The notes beneath the pieces were generated by a model, which was not told the DNA's origin, made no database searches, and worked only from the letters and a program-made list of their open reading frames with translations. A DNA stretch of 64,000 bases, from positions 547,501 to 611,500 of the forward strand of contig OZ029922.1 in NCBI GenBank assembly GCA_964023275.1, given 5' to 3'. A program made the translations under genes and the position numbers. This DNA is from Norana najaformis (Eukaryota > Annelida > Clitellata > Crassiclitellata > Hormogastridae). Position 1 is the stretch's first letter. Each line of letters starts with the position of its first letter. Positions 3,228-38,100 of this stretch are shown here, piece after piece.

Positions 3228-3274
3228 GTAATTGTAATCTGACATCAAGGGCAAGTCATGTGTACGTTTATGTG

Positions 3275-7900: not shown

Positions 7901-8908
7901 TAAAGTTGCATTATTTCCGATAAGCCAAGAATCTTATTGAAAATGTTATTACTGGAAATATAAAAATTGTGCATCATACTAACCACATCACTTGTTAACT
8001 TATTATCAGCACAAAAAATACTGTCCAAATATTTTCTTGAATGAATCTATCCCCCTTTTGGCTTATAGGCAGATCAGGTAGAAAGGCATTACACGGTGAT
8101 CCATTGATAAGTATCAAGATTTGACACAATTTAATGCTCAACATAATTGGACGCTAACCACTTCGCTTTTATCAAGCATTTATTACTGTATGTTAGCTAT
8201 GTATTTCAGTGTCATCAGAATCTAGCCGCAGACCTCTTTCTTCTTCAGCTCTGATCTCGATCTTGTTGTTCCAACGCCCCGTACTTTGACAATGCAAAGG
8301 AAGACTTTGCATTGTGAAAGTACTGCACAATAAAAGGCCTTCATGCAATCAGCGACCTGAGCTTCTTTTCCTTTTCCTGGTAATAATTCTCCAGCGGTTG
8401 AAGACCATTCAATCTGATCATGGTCTTTTATTGTCCAGTCCTTATATTATATTGCCACATTATCTTATATTGGCATTCATTGTCACAGGAGCATCTGTTT
8501 GTAGTTTTCTTGAAACAGCGCTATATAACCCTGCATTTACGATTTCGATTAATGTACAGCGAAAACTTATAGACAGAGGCGTCTGAGAAGTAACCCATGC
8601 ATGTGGACCTTAGTAGTTTAGGATAACGATACGCTTTCTGGTAAGATTCAGAATATCATTCTATAGAAATCAATTATCAGCATATGATTTCTGGTATATT
8701 CTTATGTTCTGCCGACTCAACTGTACGCCTTGAACTAACATCATCTAAAGTAATGATACAATTTGTGTTAATGTTCTTAACATCATTCTCCATGAATCAA
8801 TGATCGCGTATAATTTGGGGTAGACTGGTGGTGTCCGTATGTCACCGATGATTTCATGATACAACTGATTCTGATACCCTGGCTCCGTCTGATTGTTTTG
8901 TGGATGCG
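4983..8908. other. Intergenic spacer, 3' flank of gene A
   Basis: No supported exon. A segment around 6140-6170 reads on the minus strand like CTGGATGGGTGACC, related to repeats near 28717 and 38180. The stretch 7535-7640 resembles spacer pieces at 16570, 24800 and 34790. Possible poly(A) signals for gene A (AATAAA on the minus strand) occur near 8180. The long open frames here have no recognisable domain. Confidence 0.4.
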
Positions 8909-17331: not shown

Positions 17332-20300
17332 TCAATTTATGATTTCGAGGTAACTCGGGGCATGCGTATCATCAATTTCTTCGTAGTGGTTATCGGTGTT
17401 TAGTTCCGTCTGCTGTGACTTCATGGGACGAACTGTTGGCGGCGGCAGCGGCTTCCTTGTTTGTGCCTGTAGTGGTGTATACTGCTGGTTCATTTTCAAG
17501 TAGCCTTGTTCGTCTAAATTCGGATCTAGATTCAGAGACGATGTATCTCGTGGTTCGTCTTCGCGGTTTGCTTGTCTGCGCCTGGGTTTTCTGAAAAATA
17601 AAGTAAACCAACGTCACTATATTATGACTGACACATTACATATTGAGGTAGGAAGCAGAGAGATACACAGAGACAGGTTAACAGACAGAAATGTAGATGA
17701 TCAAATAGAGAGGATACCAGACCCGTCAAGTGAATTCAGCATAGAATGGTAAGATGTCTCCAGCACTTTTGGGAGATGCTAAACAGTGCTATATAAATGT
17801 CTTGTTACACTATATTAACTTCAGTTAGATGCCTCTACATTTAATAATACTGGCAAGAGGTCACTACGCATAGCATCGGAGACCATCATCTTCAGTATGA
17901 GTGTCTCCTTCAAAATCCAACGCACGTACTTAATCTATGAACTGAACATAGAAAGTGATCCTCACCGCTTCTTTACAATCACAACGACGATCACGACCAC
18001 CAAGAGAATCGTGGTCACCGCAGTGGAAATCCCAGCAACAAGAATAACAACGACATTCGATTCTGACTTAATTGTAGATTTAGGAGTAACAGCGCTTTTT
18101 TCAACGTCAGTAGGACCTGGAAATGAAACAAAACGGATGGGAATCATTGAGTTTGGCTCTACGTGTTTGCGTGAGCCTACGAATAGTGACTTTTCTAGTA
18201 ATCTGAACAATACTTGCTATTGGACTTACTGATAAATTTGTTCCTGTTGTCTGTAAACGTTTAAGCCAGCTTAAGCAGCACGTCAGTGTGGCGTTTAAAG
18301 GCGACTTCATACTTCACTAAAATGCTATGGTATTAAGCAATGAATTGCATTAGGCATCAGAAGAATCATTTTACATTTCTATTAAGGCACTACACGTTAT
18401 CAAAAGCCAAAGTAGAAGAGGAGCAGACCCTTAAGTTAAAAACCCTGAGAGGTACCCACGGGATATGCAGATTTTTCTAAGCATTGGCAGATGAGAGTGG
18501 AAGATCAATCCTCTTCCTTGTTGTATCTTGTTCCAACCGACAGTGGGTACGGTTAGACGCACGGTCAGTGAACTCATTTTAGCACACTTGCGGGCAGTAG
18601 AGGAGCAGATATCTCAACACATGCCTGCCCTGCCTCCGATTGACAGCCTAGCACGCTAACCACAGCATTATCTCGAAACCATCCTTTCATCCGTTGTTTT
18701 CATTTGCCATTCCACATTCGAGTAACCTAACCCTTAAGAAACTTACAGCCATTCAAGGAAAGTTAACTTTTTAATTGCTGGAACATATCTACACATCGAA
18801 CTCCTATGTTTAACAGGATAATCCAGAAATGATAATGAAGTATCTTTAAAATATCATGCATAGCCTGAACACATACACAATTGAGCTCATGTATACATTC
18901 ATAATGTAATTGCAATAACAAATTTTTGTGGTGCCTCATCGAAACAGACTCGACAGAGGCGTACTGGAACTGACAATTATTCAGTTACGTTCATGCATAC
19001 ACAAAACATACACACATAACCACATACATGCTTGGCCTATATATATACATGCATTTATATATTCATTCATACATATATTAGTACTATGTATTAATACATT
19101 GGTACCTGTTTGGCAGATGAATCGTTTATAAGAATTGCAGGTTTCCTGCTTCCATCGGAATTTATTCAATTCAACGACCATGCATTCACGGCCTGGCTTA
19201 AACCCGTTCTCCAACAACCAGTTGCTGTACTTCATCTCATCCGTTGATACTGCAAAACAATTTTTGAGTTAATCATTAACGTGTTAGTTCATCTATACAC
19301 TGCAGGCCAGTCTCTTCTAAGATAATGCTGAAATACCTAGCGCTTGATTTGGGCGACTTGGTGCTTTGGAGAAAAGCTGGTACAGTGAGTGATTCCACAG
19401 CCTGAAACTGGGTTAGTATTTGGGTGTGTGAACATATTGGCAGCTGGGTTCGTACAAGGATGGGTACTCAGATAACCTTGTTGGCTTGGATGTCACCCAT
19501 CAGAGCCATACCGTATCATCTGTGCCAACTAAGCCCTTTATTTCTTTTATGTATATATGAATACCAATGCGAGTCGGATGGTGAAAGGTGTCCTGTTGTC
19601 GGATTGCTGTGATCCCGTTTGCGCTTAAGCCGAAGGCTGCAGAACATATTTGAATTGTTCGATGACTTAAGCCACCATCTGCCAAGAGAAATGTTGAGCA
19701 GTAGTTATTTAAATTGATGTGTTACACGTTTGTCGATTGGTTTGAGCGCTCGACTACAACGTGAAGTGTACAGGTTCGAGCCTCCCCTGAGACGATTACT
19801 GTATAAGGACCTTGAGCAAGTCCCTCGACTTGACCTCAACTCATGCTCGCCATTACATAGTGGTGCTTAATAAATACAGAAATAATAATATTAATAATGT
19901 GCTCATTTATATTTATTTAAGATTGTAGGCCTATACTGACTATATTTGGTTACCTTTATCTCATAATTTATTTGACCAATTTATTTGTCATAATTTATTT
20001 GCACTACAGCTTCGTTGAGATGTTTAAAGGCGCAATCACAAGAGGTAGTTGCATACAGACACAAGCGTACTATACCATGCGCTATCGATGCCCTTGTCAG
20101 GTGAAAAACAAAGGTTACTTACTTATTTTAAACTTCTTCTTTAGATTTATACATCCTATGTAAGATTTTAGAATAAATGAAAATTAGAAAAATAGAATTC
20201 GTTTCTTATCAGAGTATTGCACAAGCAATTTGAGAATAGCTGCAAATTGGTGTATTTAAACTTTGCCTCATATGAGTCTCTCTTGGAAAGGCGCTATAAA

Positions 20301-21637
20301 AATCTGTGAATAAAAGTATTTTCAGAATTACCGTTGAATGAGGCTTGTAATAAGTCCGACTTGTAAAATGAATAATGATCGAACTTTGGAATTACTTTGA
20401 TCGCTGTTAGGCCAGTCAGTGAAAGGAACACCGTTCGCCCAAGTCCATTCACCTCTTCTAACTTCTCGTCCGCTGAGCCACATATCATCAAGATCTGTCA
20501 GCTTCAATGAAATCAAGTACTCTTCGAAAACGCCTTGAATGCCTCTATCTAGAATCATGGGCAGGGTGCCATTATTGCTTCTACATATTCGCCAAGCCTC
20601 TCGCTGCGTTACCCACGTAAAATAGGGTTCATGTCGGAAGAAACAGACGTTTCGATTGCCCACCGGGTAGCATTTTTTATTAATCTGCTGAATACTTTGA
20701 ACTGGAAACGTCAGACCTGAAATATAGATTTGAAAATGTCGTTTTTGTGATTGCAAAATAACTTTAAAATTATAAGAAAATAAAACAAAACTGCAAACAG
20801 CTACATCGAATAATAAAGGCTACTATATTTACAGAGCGTAGAATAAAATAAAATTTATTCTACAAAGAATTATCCGGAGAAAATCATGAAACATCTGGAA
20901 CGGCTATATCAAAATTATATTATTTTTTTATTTGAGTCTTGTATGAATTTTTAATTTGCTTCGTTAAATCTTATAATTACTAACACTGCTCTTAAAAATT
21001 CCTATCCTGATTCCAACTCTTATCTTTGTCTCTCTCACCGCTCCAGTTTCAGAAAACATACTGTCTAGGAGTCTGAGAGTCTACCTTCCTGATCCTTGGA
21101 CTTCGATCTGGAACCGAAGCTGACTTTACCCGCCTACCTATTTTGTTTTGACTAAGCGCTTGTAAACAATTGGTTCTTACAACTTAACTTTCTTAGGCGT
21201 TAAAGAAATTTTTTAATTACCATTACGATTAACAGACAACTATTGAGAGACCATTAAATTGTTCTTGGCAAAAGTTGGCATTGATCAAAGATATATTTCA
21301 AGCTTTGAATTCATAACTTATATAAATACTTCGATTAAATATATATATATACAATAAGTAGTTTAATTGGTTTATGATTAGCTGAAAACGGTCTAAGACA
21401 AGCTGTAAGCTAAGTATGGTGACATCCAAATTAATTCAATAAAGGATATGTGCTGAAAGAGCGTATAAAACATCAAAGATATATTAAACCAATTGTTAAT
21501 TTAACAATAAGTTATATTGGCATTTGAGCTGAGGAAAACTTATACAAAACTTTGTATACACAAATATCGAACTTACCGAACATTACTAAAATTATTTGCC
21601 AGGTACGATGAACTCGAGAAGTTAACATCCCGCTCAT
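17332..21637 (-). CDS. Gene B: single hybrid-CTLD receptor with ITAM tail
   Basis: Five exons (minus): signal 21577-21637, CTLD1 first half 20396-20716, CTLD2 second half 19106-19249, transmembrane 17966-18116, tail 17332-17590. Total 936 nt, 311 residues, in frame. Unlike C and D, the CTLD1 second half and CTLD2 first half are absent: about 1.3 kb has been deleted. The remaining halves are both phase 1 and join into one CTLD with hairpin cysteines (KKCYPVGNRNVC), helix cysteine (AWRICRSNNGTLPM), WLSGREVRRGEWTWANG and the three late cysteines (RECMVVELNKFRWKQETC, RFICQ). The stalk and helix (VILVAGISTAVTTILLVVVI) share one exon and end KKR. The tail (85 residues) has YLKM (YxxM, PI3K-type), NQQYTPL, a proline-rich PLPPP, and the ITAM HYEEIDDTHAPSYLEI. 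The first tail tyrosine present in C and D is Ser here. The alternative ATG at 21628 is in frame. Confidence 0.82.
17341..17385 (-). other. ITAM in the tail of gene B
   Basis: Tail residues 69-83 read YEEIDDTHAPSYLEI, with Asp at -3. This satisfies D/E-x2-YxxI-x7-YxxI. In known receptors such a pair, once phosphorylated by Src-family kinases, binds tandem-SH2 kinases of the Syk type. Confidence 0.85.
17740..17820 (+). repeat. SINE remnant (family D 3' end)
   Basis: The stretch AAGATGTCTCCAGCACTTTTGG...GCTATATAAATGTCTTGTTACACTATATTA matches the 3' part of the elements at 26748 and 36425. It lies at the same place, in the intron between the transmembrane and tail exons. The tRNA-like head is lost here. 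Confidence 0.55.
18480..18665 (-). repeat. tRNA-Asp-like SINE (family B), shared intronic copy
   Basis: Diverged minus-orientation copy: ...GCTAGGCTGTCAATCGGAGGCAGGGC... followed by the body with TGAGATATCTGCTCC and ACTGTCGGTTGGAACAAG. Equivalent copies lie in the same intron of gene C (27625-27790) and gene D (37235-37395), so the insertion predates the duplications. Confidence 0.6.
19725..19890 (+). repeat. tRNA-Thr-like SINE (family A)
   Basis: TCGATTGGTTTGAGCGCTCG (A box), GGTTCGAGCCTCCC (B box), AAGGACCTTGAGCAAGTCC body and GGTGCTTAATAAATACAGAAATAATA tail. It occupies the gene B intron; the matching copy in gene C is at 30355-30535 and a truncated one in gene D is at 39535-39602. Confidence 0.75.
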
Positions 21638-21712
21638 AGATGCATCACTAATGTGTGCCAACGGTCAAATGACAAATGCTGACTTCGTAATAAAACTACA
21701 AAAGTAGCTAAA

Positions 21713-21800
21713 CAAACCCAAGGAACAGTTGGCGTTAGGAAGTTCTATAAATATCCGGTATTAGTCAGGAATACTACGCTTCACGTGCAACTTGGTAAAT
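21713..21800 (-). promoter_or_regulatory. Candidate core promoter of gene B
   Basis: A block about 80-160 bases upstream of the start codon is conserved between genes B, C and D (plus-strand core AAACAAACCCAAGGAACAGT and, further out, AGTCAGGAATACTACG). In B the minus strand holds a TATA-like ATATTTATAG and a CACGTG E-box. The promoter role is inferred from position and conservation. Confidence 0.4.
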
Positions 21801-24800
21801 GCAAATGATCGGAGCAGCGCCTAAACTAGGCCACACTCCCTGCGATTATACTAGACAACATTAAGCCGGACCTAATATTGACGTATCACTGCAATAACTG
21901 AACCATAGTGATTCATTCGAACTAACAAACTTAAGGCGCGTGTAAAGAAAACCCATGAATATTAGACGACTGTTATTAATAATAAGGCTAGCTCACTGGA
22001 GCGTTGTTATGTCGTTATATCTTAGCTGTGATGCCTGTGACGCCTGTTCTCTGACCTGTCTGTCTGTTAAACTGTCTGACAGTTTGCCTGCCTCGGTATA
22101 TTGCTTCGTTGACGATGCCTCCATGCCTGTTTTCTTGCAGCAAACAATTGGCCTATATCTTGTGTCGAGAAAAGGTTGTTGTTGTTGTTGTTCAATGATA
22201 TAGAGCAGGTTGCAGAATCATAACTTTCCTATATCCTCTCACTTCACATTTGTAAGTATTTTAATTGATATAAGACTACCTGTAGAAGTTCCAAAGACGC
22301 CGATAACCTTAAATCCTTTATCAATCACAACCCAATTTAACCAGATTGACACATCAGTATTCAGCGCGAACTTGGATTGGCTTGCCTACTAATTAAGTGA
22401 TGGGCTCTTGGTCACAATAGGTGTAGGTCAGCGCATTTTAAGAACCTTAATAGGCTATATCATATATACAGGTGTTATATATGTGTTCAGGTACATATAG
22501 GTACATGCATACACACAGGTGACGCACTAGAAATGCGGTCTTGCATTGCACAGTATTGTATTTTATACTGTATCAAATTATATTGCACTTCACTGTTATC
22601 ACACGCCTCAGTATGAAGACGATTTTTACATAAAAATTTCGGCAGTGTGAACATCAGCTAAATTAGAAAATGACTTAATTATGACAAAACCCTATTATAG
22701 CTCGACCTCTTAGATGACTAACCAAGAAAACGTTACTAGGTTTCACTGTAGTAGTCACCGATTGATACTATAATAACTATCCTCACGTCACCATTAACAC
22801 TAGGCTACTCGTATAATAATTCCAATCGCTGTTACAGCAAATCTTCCATTACTGTTATAATCAGTGTGTAACCGTTGCTTCCAAAACAAGACTTAATTGT
22901 CAATTGTCTTTCTAAATACACGGATCATTGAAGGTTTTAATTCAGAAACATTGCTAATTTTTCCATTCTTCCAGCGACCATTTTTATGGTTGTGTCAGTC
23001 TGTTTGTCTGTCTGTGTCTGTTTACCCGTCTACCCGTATCTGTATCTTGCCTGACTCTGTCCTTTTGCTTGTCTTCGTCTCTATGTTAACGTCAGCGTTC
23101 TGTTGACCTTCTGTGTACTGCAGACTAATTAGAATTAGTAAACAATTTCCAAGTAGCTGGGCTCGGCGTTTCTCCTGTCTCTTCCTATAATTTGGAGTGC
23201 TGCTGTTCAACTAGGTCGAGCTGCGCTTGCGTTGTCGACGGATGTACTTATAATTATCGACGGATGGATGTTTGGGTTAATGAGTTGTTTCCAATCAGCT
23301 GAAAATATCATGATACTCTAACATCACAATCTGTTTGCTATGTACTGCGCAGCGAGATGAATTTTATTATTCTAGCTTCAATGCTGAAGTACGTGTAATT
23401 GTAATTCTTCTGCGCATTCGAAGAACAATTACATATCATCTTGTCTGAGTTGAGGCCGCTATAATTAGAAAACGGCATTTGGTACCTGTTCATTGGGTTT
23501 TGGCTCCTGTGAGAACTCATTATACCGTGGAACTTATTTTACTCTGTCCAACAGGTCTCTGATCTAATTTCTGGCTGCTTAGAGCCTACTTAGACACAAA
23601 GTACTCTCAACTTTAAAGACCAATTCCTTTGACCTTTTCCTCTGGCTGTAGCACTATTAAATAATGCATTTAAGAAGTTCAACATTCCATCTTGTTTAGA
23701 CAGTCAAATCATTCTGCTCTAGCCTTGACACTGTTTATCTGCTGTCAGTTAGAACAGGATTCTAAGCTAAACCTTCATGTGTCACTGAAGTAAAGTGTGT
23801 GCAGCAAACACTGATCTAATAGAAGTTATTCGAAAATAAAATGGAATCAGGTCTCAACAGGCTCGAAAAAATTAAGTTTTCTAAGACGTATTGAAAAAGA
23901 AAATCCCACTTGTGAAAACAGTTCCAACTGATTTGTATGCAACTTTTATTCAAAACAACTGAATCTCGTTATAAATTTGATTGCATTTCAGGCTTATATT
24001 TAATTATGAATGCGATTTTTTGTACAGTTTCTTTTATAAGAATTCCATGGTTGACACCAGTTAAAACAATAACTAAACTCAGCAATTCTGATAGTAATTC
24101 TATTAAGAGCAAGTTCACCATAACTTGTTGACTTGAATCTTTACTAATATACAATATAATTATATAATAGTATGAAATATGCAATTCAATAGAGAAACCA
24201 TGCAATTCGGCCGAACACTTGTGATTGTCAGAAAACCATCATAAGGTCGAAAAACTTCAAACTGAGTTTCGTACTGCACTGAACTGGGTTGGAATCGCTG
24301 AAAAATTAGATGAAAACCGCACTTTTCTATCATAAATAGTCAAAAAGTAACAATTTCTAAGTTTCTGGTTACCTTTGAGAAATTGCTGTTTTAGGTTTGC
24401 CTTAACTTTGACTCAACCTAAGTCGCTGTGCCTAGGGGTCGCGTAAGTTTATAAATATAGTAATTTGTGGCGTATCCATGCACCCCTGAGGCTGACATCA
24501 ATGAAATCATAAAAGCTGGCTAACAAAAGCATTTACCTGTCGTTCATTTGCATAACAATCGATGTACACGACTTCAAGTTAGGGCACCAAGGGACGTGTT
24601 TAATGAAGCGTTTCTTGCAGGGCATCGCAATAAAATTGATATAAATATTTAGACAGCGAAATTCTACATAAGGACATCATACAGTTTGTTAGCTAACAAA
24701 CGGGGAGTATAAATATGCAAAGAACTTCGTTTTGGCTCATCTCATTCTGATGTTCTTCTTGCAAATTAATTTTTCTTGCTTTGAGAGGATTTTTTTCATG

Positions 24801-25662
24801 CACAGTTACATCTTACGAGCCCTTCTAAGAAATTCTTGAAGGTGCTTCTTGCTGTGTAAATGGTGTTAAAGCTTCTTAAGTAGAAGTTAACCTATACATA
24901 AATAATGATGAAAAACTGGAAATGTCATTATTGGTGAATATAATTGTTATACTTTATGAGCCCAATGCACGAGTTGTAATTTAAACGCCTCTATGGAGTT
25001 TCTCTTAAAGAAGTGCTATACAAGTTCGTAATTACAACTACGTTTATAATAAGATGCAGCATCTCAGTTATTTAGCATTGTGTTAGCGTTACAGCCCACG
25101 TTGTGTGACAGTCTGATAAAATTATCAAGTTTTAATTCTATAAAATTCTTTCACCTGAAAGAAACACTATTCCTGCAGTACTGTTTTGAATAAGCCATAA
25201 TGAATTTGCAGAACTCTGATAAACTACAGCTAACGCATGACAAGGAAAGGAGAAAGAAGAAAAAAAGATGATGATGATGATGTTGATGATGATGATGATG
25301 ATGGAGATGAAGAAAGAGAAGTAGAAGTAGAAGAAGAAGAAAAACTCAGTCCTCTTATTCACCGTCTAATCTTCCCACCGACAGTGTACAAACCGTGTAC
25401 TCACTGTACAACGAGTAAACCAGGACTGAGTGGAACTGAAATAGTTAAATATATTTCTATTCAGGCGGGAATTTCCTATTATTACGGGGATTTACTTAGT
25501 TGTTTATCACATATACCACTGGCGCAAAGTCAGTAAATTTGAATCTGAGGAGAGAGAGACAAAGTGTTCATGTTCGAAACACGTAGTCCATTCAGCCGAC
25601 TCGAACCCACAATCGTTGGATCAAAGATCCAGCATGCTACCGAATAGATCGCTGATCGCCAG
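21801..25662. other. Spacer between genes B and C with tail-exon remnant
   Basis: No intact gene. Around 23196-23225 a stub (GCTGCTGTTCAACTAGGTCG) matches the 3' end of the orphan tail exon at 33668-33863, so gene B's upstream flank once held the same exon and lost it. The stretch 22885-23170 matches 33340-33620, and 23270-24960 matches 15000-16700. T/C-rich runs such as GTCTGTTTGTCTGTCTGTGTC occur near 23000. Confidence 0.5.
25236..25350 (+). repeat. Polypurine and GAT repeats
   Basis: GGAAAGGAGAAAGAAGAAAAAAAG followed by GATGATGATG and GTAGAAGTAGAAGAAGAAG. It is at the position, relative to gene C, of the long polypurine tract next to gene B. Confidence 0.75.
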
Positions 25663-28600
25663 TCAGGGTGTGATCTCGAGGTAACTTCGGACGCCTATAT
25701 TAGCAATTTCGTCGTAGAGGTAATCTGGGTTTAGTTCATGCTGATGCGACTTTATGGGGTGAACTGTTGGCGGCGGCAGCGGCAGCGGCAGCGGCTTCCT
25801 TGTTGATGGCACTAGTGGTGTGTACTGCGGGTTGCTTTTCAAGTAGCCTTGTTCGTCTAAATTCGGATCTAGACTCAGATACGATGTATCTGTTGGTGTA
25901 GCTACAATACTGGGTTGCCTCGGCCTGGATTTGCTGAAAATAAAGTTAAAGTTTGTCATTATGAAATTAACACAGCTCACAGAAAGACTGGCAGCAGAAA
26001 GAAAGAGACAGACAGACAGGTAGACAGATAAACAGACATATAGAGAGGCGAAAGAGGAAAAAGAAGAGCGTGAGGGAAAATAGAGTTCGAAAACGAAACG
26101 AGTAGAACAATAAATAATAAACCTTCATCTTCATTTGACAAGCTCGCATGCATTACTTGCTTAGAGCAGTGATTGAAGCAAATTATGACACAATTACAGG
26201 CAAACATAATTAATGGACAAAATAAATTCACCACATTCATTCAGTAAATTTATATGCCGCCTCTTAAGATAACTGTGTGTACTCAGAAACGCTCAAAGTC
26301 CTGCCCGGTTAAATGAGACAGACAATCCTCTAAAAGTAGTGGTTCCTCAACACAGACGAATTTCAGAAGCTCTTTTTGCGAAGCTATTACAGTCGCAACC
26401 GAATCTAGATGGTCTCACGGCAACGGTGTCCCAGTAGCCGGACTTTGTTCTTCACACGGTATCTCTTGAAAACTTCTCTAACTTGACTCAGCGCTTGCGA
26501 ATAGCCTACTGTCCTGCCCTTTAGCTTTGAGCACCGCTTTAGCAATTTTCGATTACGAATATCCAGGTTGAACAAAGTGGAATACGAAGGTGCTTGTTAA
26601 GTTTTTACAAACGATGTGTAAAGAACTCAGCCGACACATAAAAACAAAATTTACTAAGAAACAATTTTGCAAGAGGCAACATTAGTTCGACATCACCATC
26701 ACCGTAAATTTCCGTTTTAATTTTTATTTAGTAGAAGGTGTGCCATGATGGCCGAGCGGCTAACATTTGGCCTATTTCTCGCTGATATCCCGGTTCGAAT
26801 CCCGGACTCGTCGTGTGAAATAGACAAAGATTTACATGATGTCTACAGTGCTTCTGGGAGGTGTTTAAAAGGCGCAAATAAATGCTTTGTTAAATTATAT
26901 TGAATTCAAACTGATGTAATCAGATCGGCAAAAGGTCAGCGTGCATAGCATCGGAGACCATCATCTTCAGTATGAGTGTCTCCTTCAAAATCCAAAGCAC
27001 AAAACTTAATAGATGACTGAACACATAAATTGATTCTCACCGCTTCTTCATAATCGCTATGACGATCACGACCACCAAGAGAATCGTTATCACCGGAATG
27101 GAAATCCCAGCAACAAGAACAACAATGAAAGTCAATCGTGGTTCGTCAGGTTTAGGAGTAAAAGGGCTTTCTACGTCACCAACACCTGCAAATGAAACAA
27201 AACTGCATAATTGACAAGAATGGGAACCTTTTGGGTCTCCTCTACCAGTGGTGTCTTTCCCAGTAATCTGAACCATGCTTTTTGATCACTTTTGAACTTA
27301 CCGATGAGATTTATTTAACGTTTGTTAACATTTAAACTAGATTTGGCAACGTGATGTGCTTAAAAGGCGACACGACACTCACTTAACGCTATAATATTAA
27401 ACAATTAATTGCACTAGGAATCATAAGAATCATTTTAGATTGGTAGTAAGGAACTACTTCTTATCCCAAGCAGAGGAGAAGAAGAAGAAGAAGAAGAAGA
27501 AGAAGAAGAAGAAGAAGAAGAAGAAGAAGAAGAAGAAGAAGAAGAAGAAGAAGAAGAGCAATCTCTTAAGTTATAACCCTAAAAGTTGGGCATGCAGTGT
27601 TAGCCAAAAGTTCTGTTTTATCAGCATCGGCAGAAGAGAGCGGGAGGTCAGTCCTCTTTTTCGCTGTCTCATGTTCCCACCGACATTGTACTGTCGGTGT
27701 TCTCATTTTAGTGTACGAGTGGGCACAAGTGAAGCAGAAATCTCAACACATGTCTGCCCTGCCTCCGATTGACAGCCTGGCACGCTAACAACAAGGATAC
27801 GTAGAAACCATCCTTTGTTTCCATATTCCACTCCATATCCGAGAAACCTAGTGCTTCAGGGACTTCATTCATTGACGAAAGTAAACATTTTAATTGCCTG
27901 TACATATTCTGCACATTAAGCTACTATATGAAATAGGTTAATCTAGAAATCATAATGAAGTATCTTTGAAACTACTGTATCATGCATACCCTACACACAT
28001 AAACATATGCACTCGTGTATACATTCATATTGCAATTCTAATAAAAGATTTATATAGCATCTTTTCAAGACACTCATCAGAGGCACTCTCGAACTGACAA
28101 TTCATACATTCATAGTTACATTCATGTATACACAAGCACAAATACACACATGCATACATAGCCTACATGCATATATGTATTTATGTGCGCAGTCATACAG
28201 GCATATATGAATAAATCAAGACTCATCTGTTTCAATTTGCTTACCCATCGTAGCCTAGCTTCTGGTTTCTCTGACCTACAGGAATTCGACCCAGCGTCTC
28301 CAACGGATTATGATTTTGGATTGCGATTTTGATTTGAATCGACCATCGAATGATACCTTGGGCATTATGATAAAAGCGCTATAAAAGTCATTAGTCGCTA
28401 TAGATTATATTAGAGATTAAAGTACATACATGTGTTAATACATTGGTACCTATTTGGCAGATGAATCGTTTATTAGAAGTGCAGTTTTCCTGCTTCCATC
28501 GGAATTTATTCAATTCAGCGACCATGCATGGACGGCCTAGCTGAAATCCGTTATCCACCTCCCAGTTGCTGTACTTCACTTCATTCGCTGACGCTGCACA

Positions 28601-31600
28601 AACAATTCATGAGTTAATTATTAAAGTGTTAATTCACCTAACAGCTGCAACTAGTCTCTGCTAAGATAAATTTGAAGTAGATGTAGTTTGCCTTGGCGAC
28701 TTGATGCTTTGTAACTAGGTTAGTACTTGGATGGATAATCATCCTGCCAGTACCTGGATGGGTGATTTGGCTTAGGTGATCTGGTTTGCATGGAAGATCA
28801 CCCATCACAGCCTTACCGTATCATCTTCATTTCTTTTATGTTTGTATATGATACCAATGCAAGTCGGATGGTGAAAGGTGTATTGTTGTCGGATTGCTGT
28901 GGCCGTGCTTGCACTTCAGCCGAAAGGTCAGAAACACGCTTCTGCGGAATTTTTAATGATTTTATTTAAATAAATGTACTACCTATATCCTCTTAACTTT
29001 TACCTGATCCACCCCAAATCCACCATTGTCTGCGCAATCCAATCCATAGCTTGGTAGCACCTGGAAATCGCCCAAAGACTTGCGGAAATTTGTTAAGATC
29101 GTCTGGACCGTCAATTATCGCAAGATCCCCGCCCCTCTCAATACATTTGTTCCGAGAGTCGTAGAAATTCGAGGTTTCTCCATCGTTAAACAGGAGGCAT
29201 CCATTCTTCAACGGGATTGTGTCTTTTGATTGACAGGCTGCACCTGAAAACATATAACAAGAACTCAAATCATTAGTCAAACAAATCGGAAATGCCATTG
29301 CCTTGAGAGATACCTTTCCGGATGCGTCTTGGGGCGATGTCTCATTTTCCCGCAGTAAAATATCTACCAGAATTTAGCATCTAGCATTTCATGATAACTT
29401 TGACATACGTTTACCTGGGGCGAAAATGAAAAATTACACTATGTTCTATGATTTTAAAAAGGTACTATTTGAGTTCAGTTTAGTTATCTTGTACTGCACT
29501 GGGTGTCGTGGTGGTTGAGTGGATAACTCCTTTAATCTTATAATCTGGTTCCTATTCCTCATGCTGGGACGCGGTGGTGTAGTGGTATGGTCGTTGCCTC
29601 GTAACCGGAAGGTCGCGGGTTCGAATCTGCCTTAAACCACTGCGTAGCGACCTTGGACAAGTTGCTCACCCGCAATTGTCTGTGAGGAAGGCAACGGGAA
29701 ACCACCTCACTCATCTCATCCCCGGGTGGCATAAAGCCAATGGACCTGCCTTCGGGCAGAAAACTCATCATCATCATCAACATTCCTCATGCTATGTTAA
29801 ATCGACACAGAGGAGCAAATAGAAATAGGCTAATTCTCTGAAAACCTTGATTTAGATCTGTAAGGGTCCCATATAAGAACATGGGTCCTTTAAGGCCCCA
29901 CATGGATATGAGGGCATTAATTATGTATTAAATTGCTTATTCGATAAAGTTAGACCTAAAATTATTAAAAGGCAACAAGTTATCATAGCAAGCAAATATT
30001 CTATCATTCTGAGAAGTTAAAAACCAACCGAAGAATTGGCAGACATAGTTTTTTTTGTTGCCAAGAGGCTCTTTCCTGTATTTCAAATCCTTCGTCAGAA
30101 CTGCTTGAAGGTCATGAGGCTGGGACTCGTTCTGAGCTAATAGCCAGCAACCAAAACAACAACTTCAACGCAAAGACAGGCTTATCTCATAGCTTACAAT
30201 TGACATAGAGGTTGTTGTGTGTTGTGGGTAAAGCATAACATTAAATTTCTAGTGTCTGCTAAGGTTGCAGAACACTGCTGAGTTGATTTGAATTGGTTCA
30301 ATGACTTATGCCACCATTTGCTAAAATAAATGTTGAGGAGCAGTTTTGAATGAATGTGTGACACGCTAGCTGATTGGTTTTAGTGCTGGCCTTGTTTTAG
30401 TGTTCGCCTTGAAATACACAGGTTCGAGCCTCCCCTGAGATGATTAATGTGTAGGGACTTTGAGCAAGTCCTTCGACCACAATTCATGCTTGCCATCAGA
30501 TAGCGGCTCTTAATAAATACAGAAATAACAATGTAGGCCTATTTTGACAACATTTTCCTACACTTGTGTCATAATTTATTTCAGCAAGTGCACTACAGTC
30601 TCTTTGAGATGTTTAAAGGCGCAATAACAATAGGCAGTTGCATATAAACAAAAGGGTTCTGTACCATACGATACATCTGCCTTTGTCAGATGAAAACAAA
30701 GGTTGCTTACCTATTCTATTTATTTTAAACTTCTTCTTTAGATTCATGCATCCTAAATAAGATTTTAGAATTAATGAAAATTAGGAAGATAGACTTCGTT
30801 TGCACAGTTGCACAGGCAACTTGAGAGAAGATGCAAACTAATGTATTCAAACTTTGTTCTGTTGCTACATTTGTGGGTAAGCCGAAACAAAGCAGATAGG
30901 TAACCACTACAATCCCGTATACTTCATTTACCCCTTTGACTTCTAATGCTAAATAAGGCAAATGCTGCATCTGTTAACTCGACAAAGATACCTTTGGAAT
31001 AAGTTACCTAGCAACCTGCAACTTAAGCTCCTTAATCTTTCTCTGTCTCGATTTCACAAGCGCTTGAACACCATTTTGTTGGACTGTGGTTCTGTGTTGT
31101 CAAGTCGATATAGCGCTTCGTATCAGTCTCTCTTGGAGAGGCTCTATATAAATCTGTCAACAAAAGTACCATTACAATTACTATTGAATGAGGCTTGTAA
31201 TAAGTCCGACTCTTAAAATGAATAATGGTTGAACTTTGGAATTACTCTGAGCGAGGTAGGCCCATTCAGGGAAAGGATCACCGTTCGCCCATGTAAATTC
31301 ACGTCTTCTAACTTCTTGTCCGGCCAGCCACATGTCACCAAGATCTGTCAGGTTCATTGAAATCATGTACTTCTCGAGAACGCCTTGAATAGCTTTATCG
31401 GAAATCATGGGCAGAGTCCCATTACTGCTTCTGCAGATTTCCCAAGCTTGTCGCTGTTCTGCCGACGTGAAATTGGGCTGAGGTCGGAAGAAACATACTT
31501 CTCGATTGCCCGCCGGGTAACATATTTTATTATGCTGAGTGCTTCGAACTGGAAACGGCAGCTCTGAAATATAGGTTCGCAAATAACTTTAAATTATACA

Positions 31601-32473
31601 AAAATAGAACAAAACTGCAAACACAATTATTGGTTAATTTAGGCTATTAAAATGAAATTAAATTTATAATCCAAGGTAGAAATGATCCTCCTGAGCTTTA
31701 CAGATGTTAGAAGAAAATTGAGAACATCTAAACGACTGAATTAAATTAAAATGAGGCTTGTATTTATTTATACTTTTCTTTGCTAAATTCTATAATTGCT
31801 AACACTGCTCTTAAAATTTCTTATCCTGATTAGGCCTATTTCTCTTGTTCCTGTCTCTGTCGCTGCTCCAGTTTCAAACATCCTCTTCCCTAGGCATCTG
31901 TGAGTAGACCTGCCTGACCTCTGCATCTCGACCAGGAGCAAAACTTGACCTTATCTGCCTACCGATTTTGTTTTGACTGAGCGTCTGTAAACAAGGTGGT
32001 TCCCGCAAGCTAGCTATCTTGGAAGACGATGAAATTTCGTAATTACGATTAAGATTACTAATCTCAAACTGATAGGCTATTAACTTGTTTTAAGCGAAGG
32101 ATAGCGATATTCAAAGATACAATGCAAGCTGTGGATTCATAACTTATCTTAATCTTTTTATTAAAAATATTTATGTATTTGAATTTGGTATATGATTAAC
32201 TGAAAAAAGTCTAAAGCTGGCTTTAAGCTAAGTACTTTTAACGATGACAATCGGATTAATTCAGTAATAGTTCTAAGGTGAAAGGGCATACACGACATCA
32301 AAGAATATTATGTTAAACCAATCTTTAACATAACAAGTTATGTTCACGTCTGAGCTGAAGAAGACTAAAGTTAGACAAAACTTTGTATGTACAAATACTG
32401 AATCGAACTTACCAAACACTAATAAAATTACTAGCCAAATACGAAGAACTCGAGAAGTTAACATCGCGTTCAT
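25663..32473 (-). CDS. Gene C: type I two-CTLD receptor with ITAM tail
   Basis: Seven exons (minus): signal 32413-32473, CTLD1 31246-31563 and 30029-30136, CTLD2 29004-29243 and 28450-28593, transmembrane 27041-27185, tail 25663-25933. Total 1287 nt, 428 residues, no break. CTLD1: KICYPAGNREVCFF, AWEICRSSNGTLPM, MWLAGQEVRRREFTWANG, NKKNYVCQF; its second half lacks the inner cysteine pair. CTLD2: CQSKDTIPLKNGC, RNKCIERGGDLAII, LWIGLRRQWWIW, KYSNWEVDNGF, RPCMVAELNKFRWKQENC, RFICQ. There is no EPN/QPD or WND, so canonical Ca2+-dependent sugar binding is unlikely. Helix: FIVVLVAGISIPVITILLVV, without charged residues, then KKR. Tail of 89 residues: SYLSL, GYLKS, NPQYTPL (NPxY), a PLPLPLPPP run, and ITAM YDEIANIGVRSYLEI. 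Receptor signalling through its own ITAM is inferred. Confidence 0.87.
25672..25716 (-). other. ITAM in the tail of gene C
   Basis: Tail residues 73-87 read YDEIANIGVRSYLEI, with Asp at -3: two YxxI boxes exactly seven residues apart. The spacer differs from those in genes B and D while all consensus positions are kept. Confidence 0.88.
26748..26890 (+). repeat. tRNA-Leu/Ser-like SINE (family D)
   Basis: GATGGCCGAGCGGCTAA (A box) and CCGGTTCGAATCCCGG (B box), then TGAAATAGACA...ATGTCTACAGTGCTTCTGGGAGG and GGCGCAAATAAATGC. It lies between the tail and transmembrane exons of gene C; diverged relatives are at 17740 and 36425. Confidence 0.75.
27478..27555 (+). repeat. (GAA)26 microsatellite
   Basis: 26 uninterrupted GAA units lie in the intron between the CTLD2 and transmembrane exons of gene C. 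The transcript strand carries TTC. Genes B and D have only short purine-rich sequence at the matching place. Confidence 0.95.
27625..27790 (-). repeat. tRNA-Asp-like SINE (family B), shared intronic copy
   Basis: Minus-orientation copy with GTGCCAGGCTGTCAATCGGAG at its head and GGTGGGAACATGAGACAGCG in its body. Same intron and position as the copies in genes B and D. Confidence 0.65.
28330..28425 (+). repeat. Short repeat ending GCGCTATAAAAGTCATTAG
   Basis: CGACCATCGAATGATACCTTGGGCATTATGAT then GCGCTATAAAAGTCATTAG. Relatives occur at 43135-43235, 48600-48725, 50750-50835 and 52190-52255, usually ending in TAGATTAGA-type repeats. Confidence 0.6.
29554..29793 (+). mobile_element. Full SINE (family C, tRNA-Thr-like) with 12-bp target duplication
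   Basis: The element runs 29566-29781 and is flanked by ATTCCTCATGCT at 29554-29565 and 29782-29793. The head GGTGTAGTGGTATGGTCG and the loop CTCGTAA, then GCGGGTTCGAATCTG, give the A box, anticodon-like loop and B box. The body has AAGGCAACGGGAAACCACCTC and ends (ATC)n. The matching intron of gene D lacks it, so it inserted after the C/D duplication. Confidence 0.88.
30355..30535 (+). repeat. tRNA-Thr-like SINE (family A)
   Basis: CTGATTGGTTTTAGTGCTGG head, GGTTCGAGCCTCCCCTGAGA, GGGACTTTGAGCAAGTCC, ending TTAATAAATACAGAAATAAC. It has an internal duplication of TTTTAGTG.. in the head and lies between the CTLD1 exons of gene C. Confidence 0.72.
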
Positions 32474-32548
32474 AGATACATCAGTGATGTATGACAACGG
32501 TCAAGTGGCAAATACAGAGCCAGATAATGAATTACCAATGGAGAAAAA

Positions 32549-32645
32549 CAAACCCAAGGAACAGTTGGCTTCAGGATGTTCTTAGTACATGACTCAATAA
32601 ACATCCGGGTATTAGTCAGGAATGCTACGTTTCATGTGCAACGGA
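32549..32645 (-). promoter_or_regulatory. Candidate core promoter of gene C
   Basis: Conserved with the blocks upstream of genes B and D. In C the minus strand reads GTTTATTGAGTCATG, which includes a TGAGTCA (AP-1-like) match, where gene B has a TATA-like sequence. Function is inferred. Confidence 0.4.
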
Positions 32646-33667
32646 GTATCAGTTAAATTATCTGAACGGCGCCTAACCTTGCCGACACTCCCTGCCACTA
32701 TACAAGGCAATATGGTGGAGGATGTGCTGCATTAACTTAGCCACAGTTACTAATTTCGAACTAACAACCTTAATGCTCATGCTAAGCAATTGTATGCTTT
32801 TACTACTAATAGCAGTGATCTAACATTATTACTAATGCTGGCACACTGGAGCATTGTTATCTCGTGATATCTTAGCTGTAGTATCTTCGTCTGTCTGTTT
32901 AACAGTCCGTTTGTCTGCATGTTGTTTCATTGACAATGCCTTCATGCCTATATCACTGCAAGAAACGATTGGCCTGTCCTTCTGGAAAAGATTAATGTTG
33001 CTGAATGAAAAATTGCAGGTTGCAGAGTCGTAACGTTTCTTAATCCGCTGATTACACATTCATAAGCATTTGAATTGTTATAAGATTACTCGTAGAAGTT
33101 CCAAAGCAGCCGATAAGCTGAAATGTTTTAAAGGTCACAACCCAATTTAACCCAACTGACAATGGAGTATTCAAGCGCGGGCAAGACAGCGTTACAAGGT
33201 TTCAATGTAGTATTCACCTACTGCCACTATTATAACTAGCCTGACTTCACTGTTAACACGAGCATACTCATACCATAATTCCCATCGTCATTTCACCAAT
33301 TCTTCCATTACTGTTATTATCAGTGTGTAATCGTTCCTTGCAAAACAAGACTTAGTTGCCAGTTGTCTTTCTAAATACACTGATCATTGAAGGTTTTAAT
33401 TCAGAAACATTGCTAATTTTGCTTTACTCCGGATACAATTTTTATGGTTTTGTCTGTCTGTTTGTCTGTCTATGTCTACTCGCCCCTCTTTCCGTCTGCC
33501 TCTTTCTGCCTCTTTCCGTTTGCTTAACATGGTCTGCCTGTGTATGTAGGCGTTCTGTTGGCCTTCATTGTATCGCATATTAAATAGAATTAATTAACAA
33601 TTTCCAAGTAGCTGGGCAAATGGGCATCCGTGTTTCTCCTGTTTACTCCAAATTGGAAAGCTGCTGT

Positions 33668-33863
33668 TCAACTAGGTCGAGCTGCGATTGTGTCGTCGGC
33701 AGCTGTAGCGAATTCTGTGCTTCGCGTAGCTGGATCTGGCTTCGTTTCTTGACGAATATAGTTCAAGGTAGTTATGTGCGTTCCAAAACTCTGCAGTTCT
33801 GGCAGTTGCTGATTCTCCATCGAAGTTTCCCTTGGTTTGCCTTCCGTACCGCAACGTGCTTTG
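33668..33863 (-). pseudogene. Orphan receptor tail exon between genes C and D
   Basis: After a tttcag acceptor the phase 2 frame, used by all tail exons here, stays open for 64 codons and stops. It contains TTLNYIRQ as its only tyrosine. Acceptor, phase and length fit a receptor tail (its start CAAA is like the C/D tails), but no transmembrane exon was found in 33864-34339. A different frame carries HNYLELYSS. Its 3' end is also present, truncated, at about 23196-23225. Probably the last exon of a dead receptor. Confidence 0.45.
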
Positions 33864-34339
33864 CTGAAACTAAATTCAAGCTGTCGTCGCATTAAGACTT
33901 AAAATATACAGAGTTCAGAATGTTGGACCTTGGTTTAAGAAGCATATACTGCTGACCTGACCTGATTTGGCCTAACTTTTCACACATAAACAACTGCCCT
34001 GAAATAGTGATAATTATATTGCACACTTCACTCAATTTTATCAAATGTTTTCCCACAAAACTTCAAACATTTAATACCATTAACCAACAGCAATAACTCG
34101 AAGATGCAAATTAGTCGAACAGAATAAGATATAACATCTAAGATGTATAAAACCTGCCTGTATCTAAAGCTGTCCTGAAAGAAGTAAATCCTCTTTAGCA
34201 ATTCATTTGTAACTATGAGTAAAACGGTTTTTGCTTAGAATTGATCATCGATCGAAACCTTGCGTATTTATTTTAACAACACATCTATAGACAAGTCCAG
34301 ATTAGATAAGACAATCTGAAAACGAGTATCTGGAGATAC

Positions 34340-34482
34340 CTGTTTGGCATAAGACTCTTTCTTGATCACTGCAGTTAACCTCTCTCCATTTAAAACTTGT
34401 TACATCAAAAACCATGCAATTCTTATAGAACAGGACTCCTTGAGGTCAACCCAGTTGCTAAATCGTATGTCAGCTGAATTAT
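34340..34482 (-). pseudogene. Frameshifted CTLD2 second-half exon, gene E type
   Basis: Closely matches the gene E exon 44647-44790 (ADIRFSNWVD, later the Cys-rich end and the same gtatctcc donor). It is 143 nt instead of 144: one base is missing after the codons for NWVD, which breaks the frame. Flanks also match gene E's surroundings for several hundred bases (34480-34740 with 44790-45060). It is a relic of a duplicated E-type gene. Confidence 0.8.
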
Positions 34483-35187
34483 CTCGAACAGAAGAAATGT
34501 GAATGAAAATGTAAATCTTCAAAATGTCTCATCGTCACACATTGTCGCATGCGAGAAATCCGTGTATTCACCAGCAAGAAAAGGAGCATCATCTGGCCCT
34601 TAAAAGATTTAAAGAATCCAAGTACGGTGACCGAGCGGTTAGCCCATCGTCCTTCAATTATGCGATAGGGCTTCATATCATAGCCCCTTAAGGCAGAATC
34701 GACACAGATCCTCCCATTGCCAAACTCTCAGGCATCCAAAACACGTGCCTCAAATTAAGTTTCCTTACATATCGAAAATTTATCATGCACAGTCACATTG
34801 TACAATCCCCTTTGAGCAACTCTTGAAGGTACTTCTAGCTGGCGCAAGTGACGTAAGAGTTTATTCGGAACAAGTTAACTTATATTCAAACAAAGCCCGA
34901 AAAGCTGGAAACGTCACCATTGGCGAATACAATTTATTATATTTCATGAACACAATGCCCGAATTGTAATCTGAGAGGCTTTAAAGCGTTCTTCTTAAAT
35001 ATGTGCTATACAATTTTGCAATTACAATTACTAGTTTAATACTACTGTACTTATTACGCGCGCAAAGTCAGTAACTTTAAATCTGAGGCGCGAAACAAAG
35101 TGTTCGTTAACGTAGTCCATTCATCAGACTCGAACCACATTCGTTGGATTACATATCCAGCTCCCGAATAGACCACCGACCCCCCAG
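34483..35187. other. Spacer 3' of gene D
   Basis: Left part is E-type flank; the right part (34780-35030) is the spacer block also seen near 16570 and 24800. No gene is supported. Confidence 0.45.
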
Positions 35188-38100
35188 TCAGTGTAGGATC
35201 TCAAGGTAACTTGGGATGCGCATGTCAGCAATTTCGTCGTAGTGGCCATCGTGGTTTAGTTCCATCTGTTGCGACTTTACGACACGATCTGTTGGCGGCA
35301 GTAATGGCTTCGTTGTTGGGTGCTTCAGTGGTGTGTACTGCTGGTTGCGATTCAAGTAGCCTTCTTCGTCTATCCTCTGCTGTAGATTCAGATACGATGG
35401 ATCTGTTTGTGTAGCTACAATACGGGGTTGCCTTGGCCTGGATTTGCTGAAAATAAGTTAAAGTCACAATGAAATTAACACAGCTCACAGAAAGACAGGT
35501 AGCAGAGAGAATAATACATACAGACAGACAGACGGATAAACAGACAGACAGGTCGACATAAAGAGACAGATAGACAGGCATAGAGAGAAGCGAAAGATGA
35601 AAAAGAAATAGCACGAGAGAAAGGAGAGACAGAAGCAAGTAGATTAGTCTAAATAATTAGTCTTTATTTTCATGTAACAAGTAGGCATGCATTATGTGCT
35701 TAGAGCAGTGACTGAAAATTATGGCACAGTTCCAGGCAAATGTAATTAATGGACATAAGTAAATTCATCACATTCATCCATTAAGTTTATATGGCGCCTC
35801 CTAATGTAATGTAATGTAACCGAAAATTTATAAAGCGCCACTTCAAGAAAAACTCCCGGCCCGACAACCCAGAAGCACAGGGAAAGAAGAAGGTCTTCAA
35901 GCGCTTGCGGAAAAGAGGAGAAGAGAGACTAAGAAATTCCTGGCGTACGTCTACGCCTCTTAAGATAACTGTGTGAACTCAGAAACGCTCACAGTCCAGC
36001 TCAGGTGAACAAAAGAGAGAAATTTATCTTAAATTTTCGGTTCCCAATACAAACGAATTTAAAAAGCTCTGAATGTGAAGCTCCTATAATCGCAATCGAA
36101 TCTAGGTGGTCTCACGCCAGTAGTCGAATCTTGTTCTTCACAAGGTATCTCTTGGTAACGTTTCTGACTTGACATAGCGCTTGTGAATAAGCTACTGTTC
36201 TAAGCTTACCCTTTCATAACGCTTTATAAATTTTGGATTACGAATACCCAGGTTGGACAAAGTGGAATAAGAAGGCGCTTGTTGAGATTTTTTCCACAAA
36301 CGATATATAAAGAACTCGGCGACGCACAACAGCAAAGCTTACTAAAAAAACATTTGAGACAGATAACACTGCAATAGTCCGACATCACAAAGACCGAAAA
36401 ATTCCGTTTTAATTATTACTTTGTAGAGCAGATGCCATGTCGCCTATTTCTCTCTGCTACCCGGGTTTGAATCTCGGTTCCGTCATGTGAAATCGACACA
36501 GAATCTCAAGATGTCTTCAGCGCTTTTGGGAAGTGCTAAAAGGTACTATATAAATGTTTTGTTGCATTATATTACATGCAATCAGATGCATTTAAATGTA
36601 ATAAGACTCACAAGAGGTCACCATAATCTTCAGCGCGAGTGTCCCCTACAAAATCTAACTCACATATTTAATAGATGAATTGAACATACAGTAGGAAATG
36701 ATCCTCACCGCCTCCTTACAATCACAGCGACGATCACGACCACCAAGAGAATCGTAATAACCGGAATGGAAATCGCAGGAACAAGAACAGCGACATTTAC
36801 TTCTGATTTAATTGGAGATTTAGGTGAAAAAGTGTCACCTACGTAAATAGGACCTACAAATTAAACAAAACTGCATAAACGACAACGATGTGGATCCTTT
36901 TGGTTGAGCTCTATACGTGTGAGAGAGTCCACTAGTGACTTTTCTCGTGATCTGAACAATACTTACTTATGGATTTACTGATACACTTTTTTCTTGATGT
37001 AGGTTAACATTTAAGCTAGCTTAGGCAACACTTCACTGAGTTGTTAAAACGCGGCTTGACACTTTCACTTACGCTTTAGCATTGAACAGTGAATTTCATT
37101 AAGCGTCAGGAGAATCATTTTAAATTGGTTGTAAGGCACTACTCCCTATCGAAAACAAAAGCGAAGAAGATAAGACCCTTAATTTAATAACCCTAAGAGG
37201 TACACATGGGTATGGAGTGTTTTCTTAGCATGAGCAGATTAGAGTCGGAGATGAGTTCTCTTCCTCGTTGTCTCATGTTCCCACACACAATGCACTTTCA
37301 GTGAACTCATTTTATTTCATCAGAGGGGAACCAGTGGAACATAAATCTCAATACATGTATATCCTGCTTCGGACAGACATTCTAGCACGCTAACCGCAAA
37401 ATTACCTCGAAACCATCCTTCAATCATATTGTGTACATTTGCCACTCCATATCCGATAAACCTAGCTCTTAAGAAACTTACAATCATGGGAGTAAAGTAA
37501 AAATTTTAATTTCCTGTTCATAAGATCTGCACGTTGAACTGCAGTGTGTTATAAGATAATCTAGAAATGATAGTGAAATATCGTTTAAACTATCATTCAT
37601 GGCCTACACCCATAAACAATTGCACTCATGCATACATTCGTTTTGCAATTGTAATAACAGATTTATGTGGCGCCTCTTTGGGAGAGACTCATCGGAGGCG
37701 CTCCAGAACTGACAGTTCACAGTTACACTCATGCATACACAAAACACACACACTTGCAAGCATAGCCTACATGCATATATGCGTTCATAATTATGTACAT
37801 TCATACATGCATTAGTACGACGTATTAATACATTGGTACCTATTTGGCAGATGAATCGTTTATAAGCACTGCAGTTTAGTTGCTTCCATTGATAATCCCT
37901 CAACTCAACGACCATACATTCAAGGTCTGGCTGAAACCCGTTATCCGATCGCCAGTTGGCGTACTTCACCTCATCTGATGACTCTGCACAAACAATTTAT
38001 GAGTTAATTATTCAAGTTTTAATTCATCTAAATCACTGCAGTTAGTCTCTCTTGAAAAATCTATTAGCTTGATTTGGGCGACTTGGTGCTTTGAAGATAC

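Follow-up and report, generated by a model that had tools for sequence, protein, structure and literature searches.

Receptor genes in the window

The window analyzed here, a stretch of 64,000 nucleotides from the annelid Norana najaformis (C10:547501-611500, in a genome of 608 Mb and 17 contigs), holds the genes A to F, which encode C-type lectin-like domains (CTLDs) on the minus strand. Three of these, B, C and D, are our main subject: they are predicted type I receptors whose own cytoplasmic tails end in an immunoreceptor tyrosine-based activation motif (ITAM), and they are surrounded by related genes, several of which have tails with paired motifs of the immunoreceptor tyrosine-based inhibition motif (ITIM) type. 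The initial annotation of this DNA described the ITAM tails but did not mention the larger context, in which the window also contains the ITIM-bearing gene E and the tails of the cluster are of two kinds.

The models of B, C and D consist of signal-peptide, CTLD, transmembrane and tail exons, and each spliced model is a single uninterrupted open reading frame (ORF), encoding proteins of 311, 417 and 413 amino acids, respectively. All introns are of the GT-AG type, with phase 1 for those in the extracellular part and phase 2 for the intron between the transmembrane and tail exons. The transmembrane helices have no charged residue and are followed by KKR or RRR. C and D have two CTLDs, as had been proposed for all three genes, whereas B has a single hybrid CTLD. 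A nucleotide alignment of B and C showed that the segment at 30286-28933 in C, containing exons 1b and 2a, is missing from B, and since the flanking introns share phase 1, the two leftover halves are joined without a shift of frame. The Lectin_C profile covers the hybrid domain once (4.3e-10, profile positions 5-107 of 107), matches C in two stretches (1.5e-14) and matches the D exon at 38442-38819 (5.6e-05, a scan of this single exon rather than of the whole of D). The exon loss in B (19249-20396, minus strand) also illustrates how uniform phase-1 introns ease domain changes of this kind.

Calcium-dependent sugar-binding C-type lectins carry a WND-type motif. In B, C and D, the place of this motif in the 2b exons is taken by WKQ. 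Classical sugar binding by these domains is unlikely to judge from this replacement, which would instead argue for protein ligands, as in the natural killer (NK) receptors. The sequence relatives of the second CTLD of C in the PDB are ordinary CTLDs, such as those of tetranectin, CD69 and NKG2D (best 3e-06), and no relative was found in a PDB sequence search with the hybrid CTLD of B.

ITAMs in the tails of B, C and D

The ITAM consensus consists of two YxxL/I boxes separated by a spacer of 6-8 residues, with an acidic residue N-terminal of the first tyrosine. A six-frame search of the window identified YEEIDDTHAPSYLEI in B, YDEIANIGVRSYLEI in C and YDEIADMRIPSYLEI in D, all on the minus strand (Table 1). 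The phase-2 join places them in frame at the C-terminus, as YEEI-x7-YLEI in B and YDEI-x7-YLEI in both C and D, and only two residues follow the motif in each protein. The motifs conform to the consensus and are located inside the predicted cytoplasmic tail, behind the transmembrane helix. As the initial annotation had stated, all three proteins alike have aspartate at position -3, both YxxI boxes and a seven-residue spacer, while the residues within the spacer vary between the copies, and the intact models with their consistent splice phases bear out its claim that the ITAM ends the last exons in frame. The pentapeptide QYTPL is also conserved in the three tails. A Pfam scan of the tails gave no family at E<=10, the motif being possibly too short for profiles.

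The transmembrane helices of all three receptors are uncharged, as had been claimed in support of autonomous signaling. Since the ITAM is in frame in type I CTLD receptors with uncharged transmembrane helices, signaling without an adaptor would be the natural reading of the predicted proteins. It had further been claimed that a competing frame hides the motif in B and D. This frame is in fact open in all three tails (66 codons in B, 65 in C and 73 in D), but a possible phase-0 donor into it is limited to B and D (ATT|GTAAAG and ATT|GTAAGG), C having ATT|ATGAAG at this site.

Twin ITIM-type tails in the surrounding cluster

Matches to Lectin_C on C10 extend from approximately 384 to 945 kb (150 of 373 candidates scored). 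We covered 370-660 kb and 910-950 kb of this contig, in total 330 kb including the window, in which at least 28 loci have both CTLD and transmembrane exons. Altogether 29 genes were followed, for 28 of which a transmembrane exon with a phase-1 acceptor and a phase-2 donor was located. Gene g921 was included although it has no 2b match, and a 2a-only match at 416109, an E-like 2b remnant at 581838 and 1a-only fragments around 550-552 kb were left out beforehand. Charge-free helices were demanded by the rule for transmembrane exons, so the genes selected by it cannot testify for this feature, which is seen directly in the sequences of B, C, D and E. Tail exons were selected as the longest in-phase ORF within a distance of 1.6 kb, a rule that is blind to motifs but was written after candidate tails had been seen. 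By our judgement by eye it took the wrong exons for A, B and D, and probably for g403, g471, g618, g655, g921 and g936; these rows were kept among the 28 tails.

The ITIM, [SIVL]xYxx[ILV], and the immunoreceptor tyrosine-based switch motif (ITSM), TxYxx[VIL], often occur in pairs. Two Y[AT]x[VIL] motifs placed 16-28 residues apart, a definition made after seeing the tails, were found in 8 of the 28 rule-picked tails, with distances between the tyrosines of 20 residues in g389, 24 in g498, 23 in g514, 24 in g524, 23 in E, 24 in g645, 24 in g928 and 25 in g946. Shuffles gave P<=0.0027 for each of these tails. Six of the eight have a canonical ITIM as their second motif (IVYAQL, IMYATL, IVYATL, IVYAKL, IVYASL and IVYADL), and this motif is ITSM-like in g498 (TMYTKL) and neither of the two in g928 (HVYADL). 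By sequence motif, E and its neighbors thus qualify as bearers of ITIM or ITSM tails, and a ninth tail, in g485, has TVYADL alone. The same phase-2 join that opens the ITAM tails also opens those of the ITIM type. As the true tail exons of B and D were missed by the rule, the count of twin motifs is independent of these two genes.

As a background we used 2,627 ORFs of 45-300 amino acids (171,010 amino acids) from the cluster sequence, after removal of ORFs with a 12-mer common to the tails. The twin motif occurs in nine of them, two of which look by eye like further genuine tails. A first set of decoys separated poorly from the tails, with the twin motif in 9 of 56 decoys versus 8 of 28 tails. 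Since wrong-phase decoys can reach the same ORF from another acceptor, the 21 decoys with a 12-residue stretch common to a tail were removed, and the motif is present in one of the 35 that were left. The ratio of observed to expected YxxL/I motifs is 3.07 in the 28 tails, 2.26 in the 56 decoys and 1.14 in the 35 cleaned decoys, and their density is 1.82 per 100 amino acids in the tails versus 1.37 in the first decoys. A shuffle of 14 tails gave 35 YxxL/I motifs versus 7.6 expected, which is supportive only, as these tails were picked by eye and include B-D.

Table 1. Positions in the window of the exons and motifs of genes A to F.
Feature	Positions	Strand	Remarks
Gene B tail exon	17332..17590	-	ITAM YEEIDDTHAPSYLEI at 17341-17385
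Gene B transmembrane exon	17966..18116	-	phase-1 acceptor, phase-2 donor
Gene B CTLD 3' half, 2b type	19106..19249	-	in-frame join to 1a
Gene B CTLD 5' half, 1a type	20396..20716	-	exons 1b and 2a lost in B
Gene B signal-peptide exon	21577..21637	-	by-eye prediction
Gene C tail exon	25663..25933	-	ITAM YDEIANIGVRSYLEI at 25672-25716
Gene C transmembrane exon	27041..27185	-	
Gene C CTLD2 3' half	28450..28593	-	
Gene C CTLD2 5' half	29004..29243	-	
Gene C CTLD1 3' exon	30029..30103	-	25 codons, one Cys
Gene C CTLD1 5' exon	31246..31563	-	
Gene C signal-peptide exon	32413..32473	-	by-eye prediction
Gene D tail exon	35188..35446	-	ITAM YDEIADMRIPSYLEI at 35197-35241
Gene D transmembrane exon	36709..36853	-	
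Gene D CTLD2 3' half	37840..37983	-	
Gene D CTLD2 5' half	38447..38686	-	
Gene D CTLD1 3' exon	39219..39293	-	
Gene D CTLD1 5' exon	40102..40419	-	
Gene D signal-peptide exon	41265..41325	-	by-eye prediction
Gene E tail exon	41991..42774	-	NYADL, HYEKL, DHYAKI, canonical ITIM IVYAKL; twin YAK[IL] 23 residues apart
Gene E transmembrane exon	43254..43350	-	helix without charged residue; weak donor GTTCTA
Gene E CTLD exons	44645..47499	-	1a 47499-47203, 1b 46622-46548, 2a 45680-45438, 2b 44791-44645; extents of matches rather than exon boundaries
Gene F tail exon	51193..51415	-	single NTHYTDL
Gene F CTLD exons 1a, 2a, 2b	53854..57380	-	match extents
Gene A YHEI-x9-YPKL	8811..8861	-	alignable with g542 and B-D tails; outside the frame of the phase-2 join of A (stop of the in-frame tail near 8911)
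Gene A CTLD exons 1a, 2a, 2b	11620..13962	-	match extents; ~70% identity to g524 and g542, both beyond the window

Other traces of the family were also observed. An isolated remnant between C and D (34338-34483, minus strand) is 86-92% identical to the 2b exon of the second CTLD of gene E. On the plus strand at 2894-3921, a CTLD exon fragment is directly followed by a C-terminal septin fragment (PF00735, 5e-15), which may be a processed copy that was inserted there. At approximately 396.5 kb on C10 (minus strand), inspection by eye revealed a tail candidate, DYEEIQESKYEEIQESKYEEI, about 4 kb past the transmembrane exon of g403, with ORFs resembling reverse transcriptase in the intervening intron. 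Further groups of Lectin_C matches in the genome are located at C5:31.7-31.9 Mb, C2:16.4-16.5 Mb and C8:27.2-27.6 Mb. The erythrocruorin linker family Eryth_link_C, which is typical of annelids, has 29 matches in the genome (best 8e-32). The mollusc haemocyanin family PF14830 had no match, but the control genomes gave none either.

Relationships between ectodomains and tails

The CTLDs of g524, which has a twin ITIM tail, are 72% identical to those of g542 and 70% identical to those of A, and these three genes form one clade with a support of 0.995 in the CTLD tree. Only this clade was used, as several plus-strand rows in the tree are 1a exons caught by the 2a queries, and B, having no 2a exon, is absent. 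The tails of g542 and A can be aligned with those of B-D, and a comparison of the g542 and D tails gave an E-value of 4e-6 in the small search space of two sequences, with 16 of 41 residues identical. In their CTLDs, B-D have 38-44% identity to A and g542, and E has just 34-39% identity to B-D.

We read these patterns as one ectodomain family (g524, g542 and A) that carries two types of tails, as would be expected for paired receptors that exchange their 3' exons. Conversely, one tail lineage is probably attached to two ectodomain families. Gene A, which adjoins B, was considered as a fourth ITAM receptor and rejected, its motif being off the spliced frame; in the alignment the frame of its tail departs from that of g542 after NLPTESS.

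Syk- and SHP-type genes

With human SYK and with SHP2 as queries, we identified three Syk-type loci with kinase exons that are 56-73% identical to human SYK, two of them neighbors at C7:1217187-1240505 and one at C1:32494048-32507472. Among the matches listed, exons for the N-SH2 domain and the start of the C-SH2 domain are located in order upstream on the same strand. A weaker fourth match is found on C14. An SHP2-like locus at C1:56.77 Mb has eight exon matches in order, with 52-82% identity, and four further loci have partial matches to SH2 and protein tyrosine phosphatase domains (C6:6.25 Mb, two at C8:26.29-26.31 Mb and C15:17.79-17.80 Mb). SHP-type loci usually number one or two per genome, and the five found here are thus more.

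Interpretation and alternatives

Our favored interpretation, which we consider fairly probable, is that B-D are type I CTLD receptors with an ITAM in cis and represent the activating arm of a paired activating and inhibitory cluster, in which the neighbors carry the twin ITIMs. Clustering of B-D by a ligand would allow a Src-type kinase to phosphorylate both tyrosines of YxEI-x7-YLEI, and the doubly phosphorylated ITAM would then recruit the tandem SH2 domains of a Syk-type kinase in cis, without an adaptor. The twin motifs of E and its neighbors, being 20-25 residues apart, would recruit SHP-type phosphatases. If expressed, the receptors would probably be borne by coelomocytes.

The cluster is best read as convergent with the vertebrate NK-receptor complexes. 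A more far-reaching hypothesis, for which we see not quite even support, is that an annelid has independently built an NK-complex-like locus. Phase-compatible 3' modules, consisting of the transmembrane helix and the tail, would have been exchanged between ectodomain families to generate matched twin-ITIM/SHP and cis-ITAM/Syk receptors, alongside several Syk- and SHP-type genes.

Several observations weigh against these interpretations. Strict ITAMs (YxxL/I, spacer 6-8) are present in only one of the 28 rule-picked tails, that of C, versus 4 of the 56 uncleaned decoys, and the tail rule misassigned the exons of B and D. The definition of the twin motif is post hoc. The likely sister tails have lost the ITAM, with a histidine at the second tyrosine in g542 and a stop before the motif in the frame of A, and full ITAMs of this tail lineage were seen in B, C and D only. 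When the C tail was used as a genome-wide query, it reached B, C and D, plus g542 at an E-value of 2.57. The lineage is thus narrow, and the claim that two ectodomain families share a single tail lineage is weakened, the link to g542 resting on the two-sequence comparison and the alignment. The ratios of nonsynonymous to synonymous substitutions (dN/dS) in the tails are 0.76, 0.59 and 1.44, each within an interval that spans 1, and do not demonstrate selection; those of the competing frame are 0.73, 0.87 and 0.79, so that the two frames are not told apart. Nor do the differences in the tails show an excess at third codon positions, being spread over all positions. Finally, pYEEI is a preferred site for the Src SH2 domain, and YxxI/L can be a sorting signal for AP-2. 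Docking of Src may for the former reason add to the Syk route.

The latter property suggests an alternative, namely that the tyrosine motifs serve chiefly as YxxPhi signals for endocytosis in scavenger-type lectin receptors, with the ITAM spacing being incidental. The motifs match the YxxPhi rule, and the conserved QYTPL could be accounted for in the same way. However, the three copies agree in the spacer of seven and the aspartate at -3 but not in the residues of the spacer, and eight other tails have a different but equally regular twin spacing of 20-25, for which AP-2 has no need. We find this explanation unlikely.

It is also conceivable that the motifs are look-alikes in decaying or near-neutral tails of a relaxed, duplicated family, and that their presence in B-D simply reflects recent descent. 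The dN/dS values near 1, the absence of a full in-frame motif from A and g542, and the loss of two exons in B are in line with such decay. Strict ITAMs alone are also not rare, with 38 matches in the 2,627 background ORFs. At a looser spacing of 6-12 residues there are 24 matches in the six frames of the window, B-D included, and 4 of the 28 rule-picked tails versus 6 of the 56 uncleaned decoys have such a motif; pairs at such spacings in other tails are YEVL-x9-YAYL in g422 and YQHL-x11-YDKL in g913. On the other hand, the exact pattern [DE]xxYxxI-x7-YxxI was found in none of the 2,627 background ORFs, and composition-preserving shuffles of the tails gave a strict ITAM with P=0.006 for B, 0.026 for C and 0.016 for D, values that are not independent since the genes are duplicates. 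Moreover, B, C and D have kept full ORFs and splice sites despite an intron divergence of 0.27-0.45 substitutions per site (nine comparisons). In a neutral simulation that started from the codons of C, for which the branch lengths (0.20, 0.15 and 0.17) were set by hand from the intron divergence, both boxes and the spacer were retained in all three copies in 1.2% of the runs, and the exact YxEI-x7-YLEI in 0.03%. The enrichment of twin motifs across divergent genes is likewise difficult to reconcile with decay, which we consider quite improbable as an explanation.

The initial annotation had suggested that selection keeps the consensus positions. Its own check, dN/dS on the last exons, does not support this as stated, and we rejected these ratios as proof of selection on the tail, given that the intervals include 1 in the ITAM frame and the competing frame alike. 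The ITAM core looks retained, as seen from the neutral simulation, but this does not demonstrate selection on the tail as a whole.

Less probable still is that B and D are alternatively spliced into one isoform with KKR or RRR and the ITAM, and a second one without the ITAM through the phase-0 donor, for although the competing frame is open, possible donors are present and dN/dS does not discriminate between the frames, C has no such donor, the exon-side context is poor, the basic stop-transfer residues would be dropped and the ITIM-type tails are opened by the phase-2 join.

Comparison with known receptor systems

Paired activating and inhibitory receptors are best known in the vertebrates, with immunoglobulin (Ig)-type cases reported for a tunicate and a cnidarian. 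In the vertebrate NK complex, which includes Ly49, NKR-P1, CD94/NKG2 and the Dectin-1 cluster, activating and inhibitory CTLD receptors with similar ectodomains are clustered, much as is proposed for N. najaformis. However, the vertebrate receptors are of type II, and the activating ones mostly signal via DAP12, FcR-gamma or a hemITAM, unlike the predicted type I receptors with an ITAM in cis described here. Tails with an ITIM and with an ITAM-like motif in cis are paired in FcgammaRIIA and FcgammaRIIB. Such pairing has also been described for CEACAM1 and CEACAM3 (Ig superfamily; PMC5112662). The tails of the annelid cluster would be paired as in these two cases, both of which are Ig superfamily receptors of vertebrates.

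Among the invertebrates, the closest parallels are found in the oyster Crassostrea gigas. The initial annotation had considered an ITAM in a type I CTLD receptor not to be a known standard architecture, which is nearly right, but the C-type lectin CgCLec-HTM has a C-terminal transmembrane helix, a hemITAM and Syk signaling, and hemITAM and Syk signaling are also described for CgCLec-TM1 (PMC12842671, PMC13027682). As described there, these are membrane C-type lectins with their own cytoplasmic Syk-coupling motif, as predicted for B-D. They differ in having a one-box hemITAM, and CgCLec-HTM has a single carbohydrate recognition domain, whereas the annelid receptors have one or two CTLDs, an ITAM with both boxes and ITIM-tailed neighbors. 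A classic ITAM in the own tail of an invertebrate receptor is present in the oyster protein CgIgIT2, which acts through ERK but has five Ig domains and no CTLD, and the passage describing it mentions no cluster with opposite tails (PMC11999971).

None of the titles and abstract openings listed in our literature search describes an invertebrate CTLD receptor with a two-box ITAM or a paired cluster of such invertebrate CTLD receptors, although unlisted papers or subscription literature could hold one; the only match to ITAM in a paper on annelid symbiosis was due to chance (PMC10192322). If our interpretation is true, a worm would have a CTLD version of such pairing, in which cis ITAM and twin-ITIM tails are borne by interchangeable 3' modules and matched by Syk- and SHP-type genes. 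This would mean that the same balance logic has evolved repeatedly, and would offer an invertebrate system for testing how inhibitory members give rise to activating ones. Receptor families with opposite tails at one locus have been outlined for Botryllus, in which FcoR of the fuhc locus has an ITIM and a hemITAM, and for the Alr candidates of Hydractinia, with ITAM and ITIM (PMC12065747). The annelid cluster resembles these invertebrate families in its two kinds of tails, but FcoR has Ig and sushi ectodomains and acts in allorecognition, whereas the receptors in N. najaformis combine CTLDs with a two-box ITAM.

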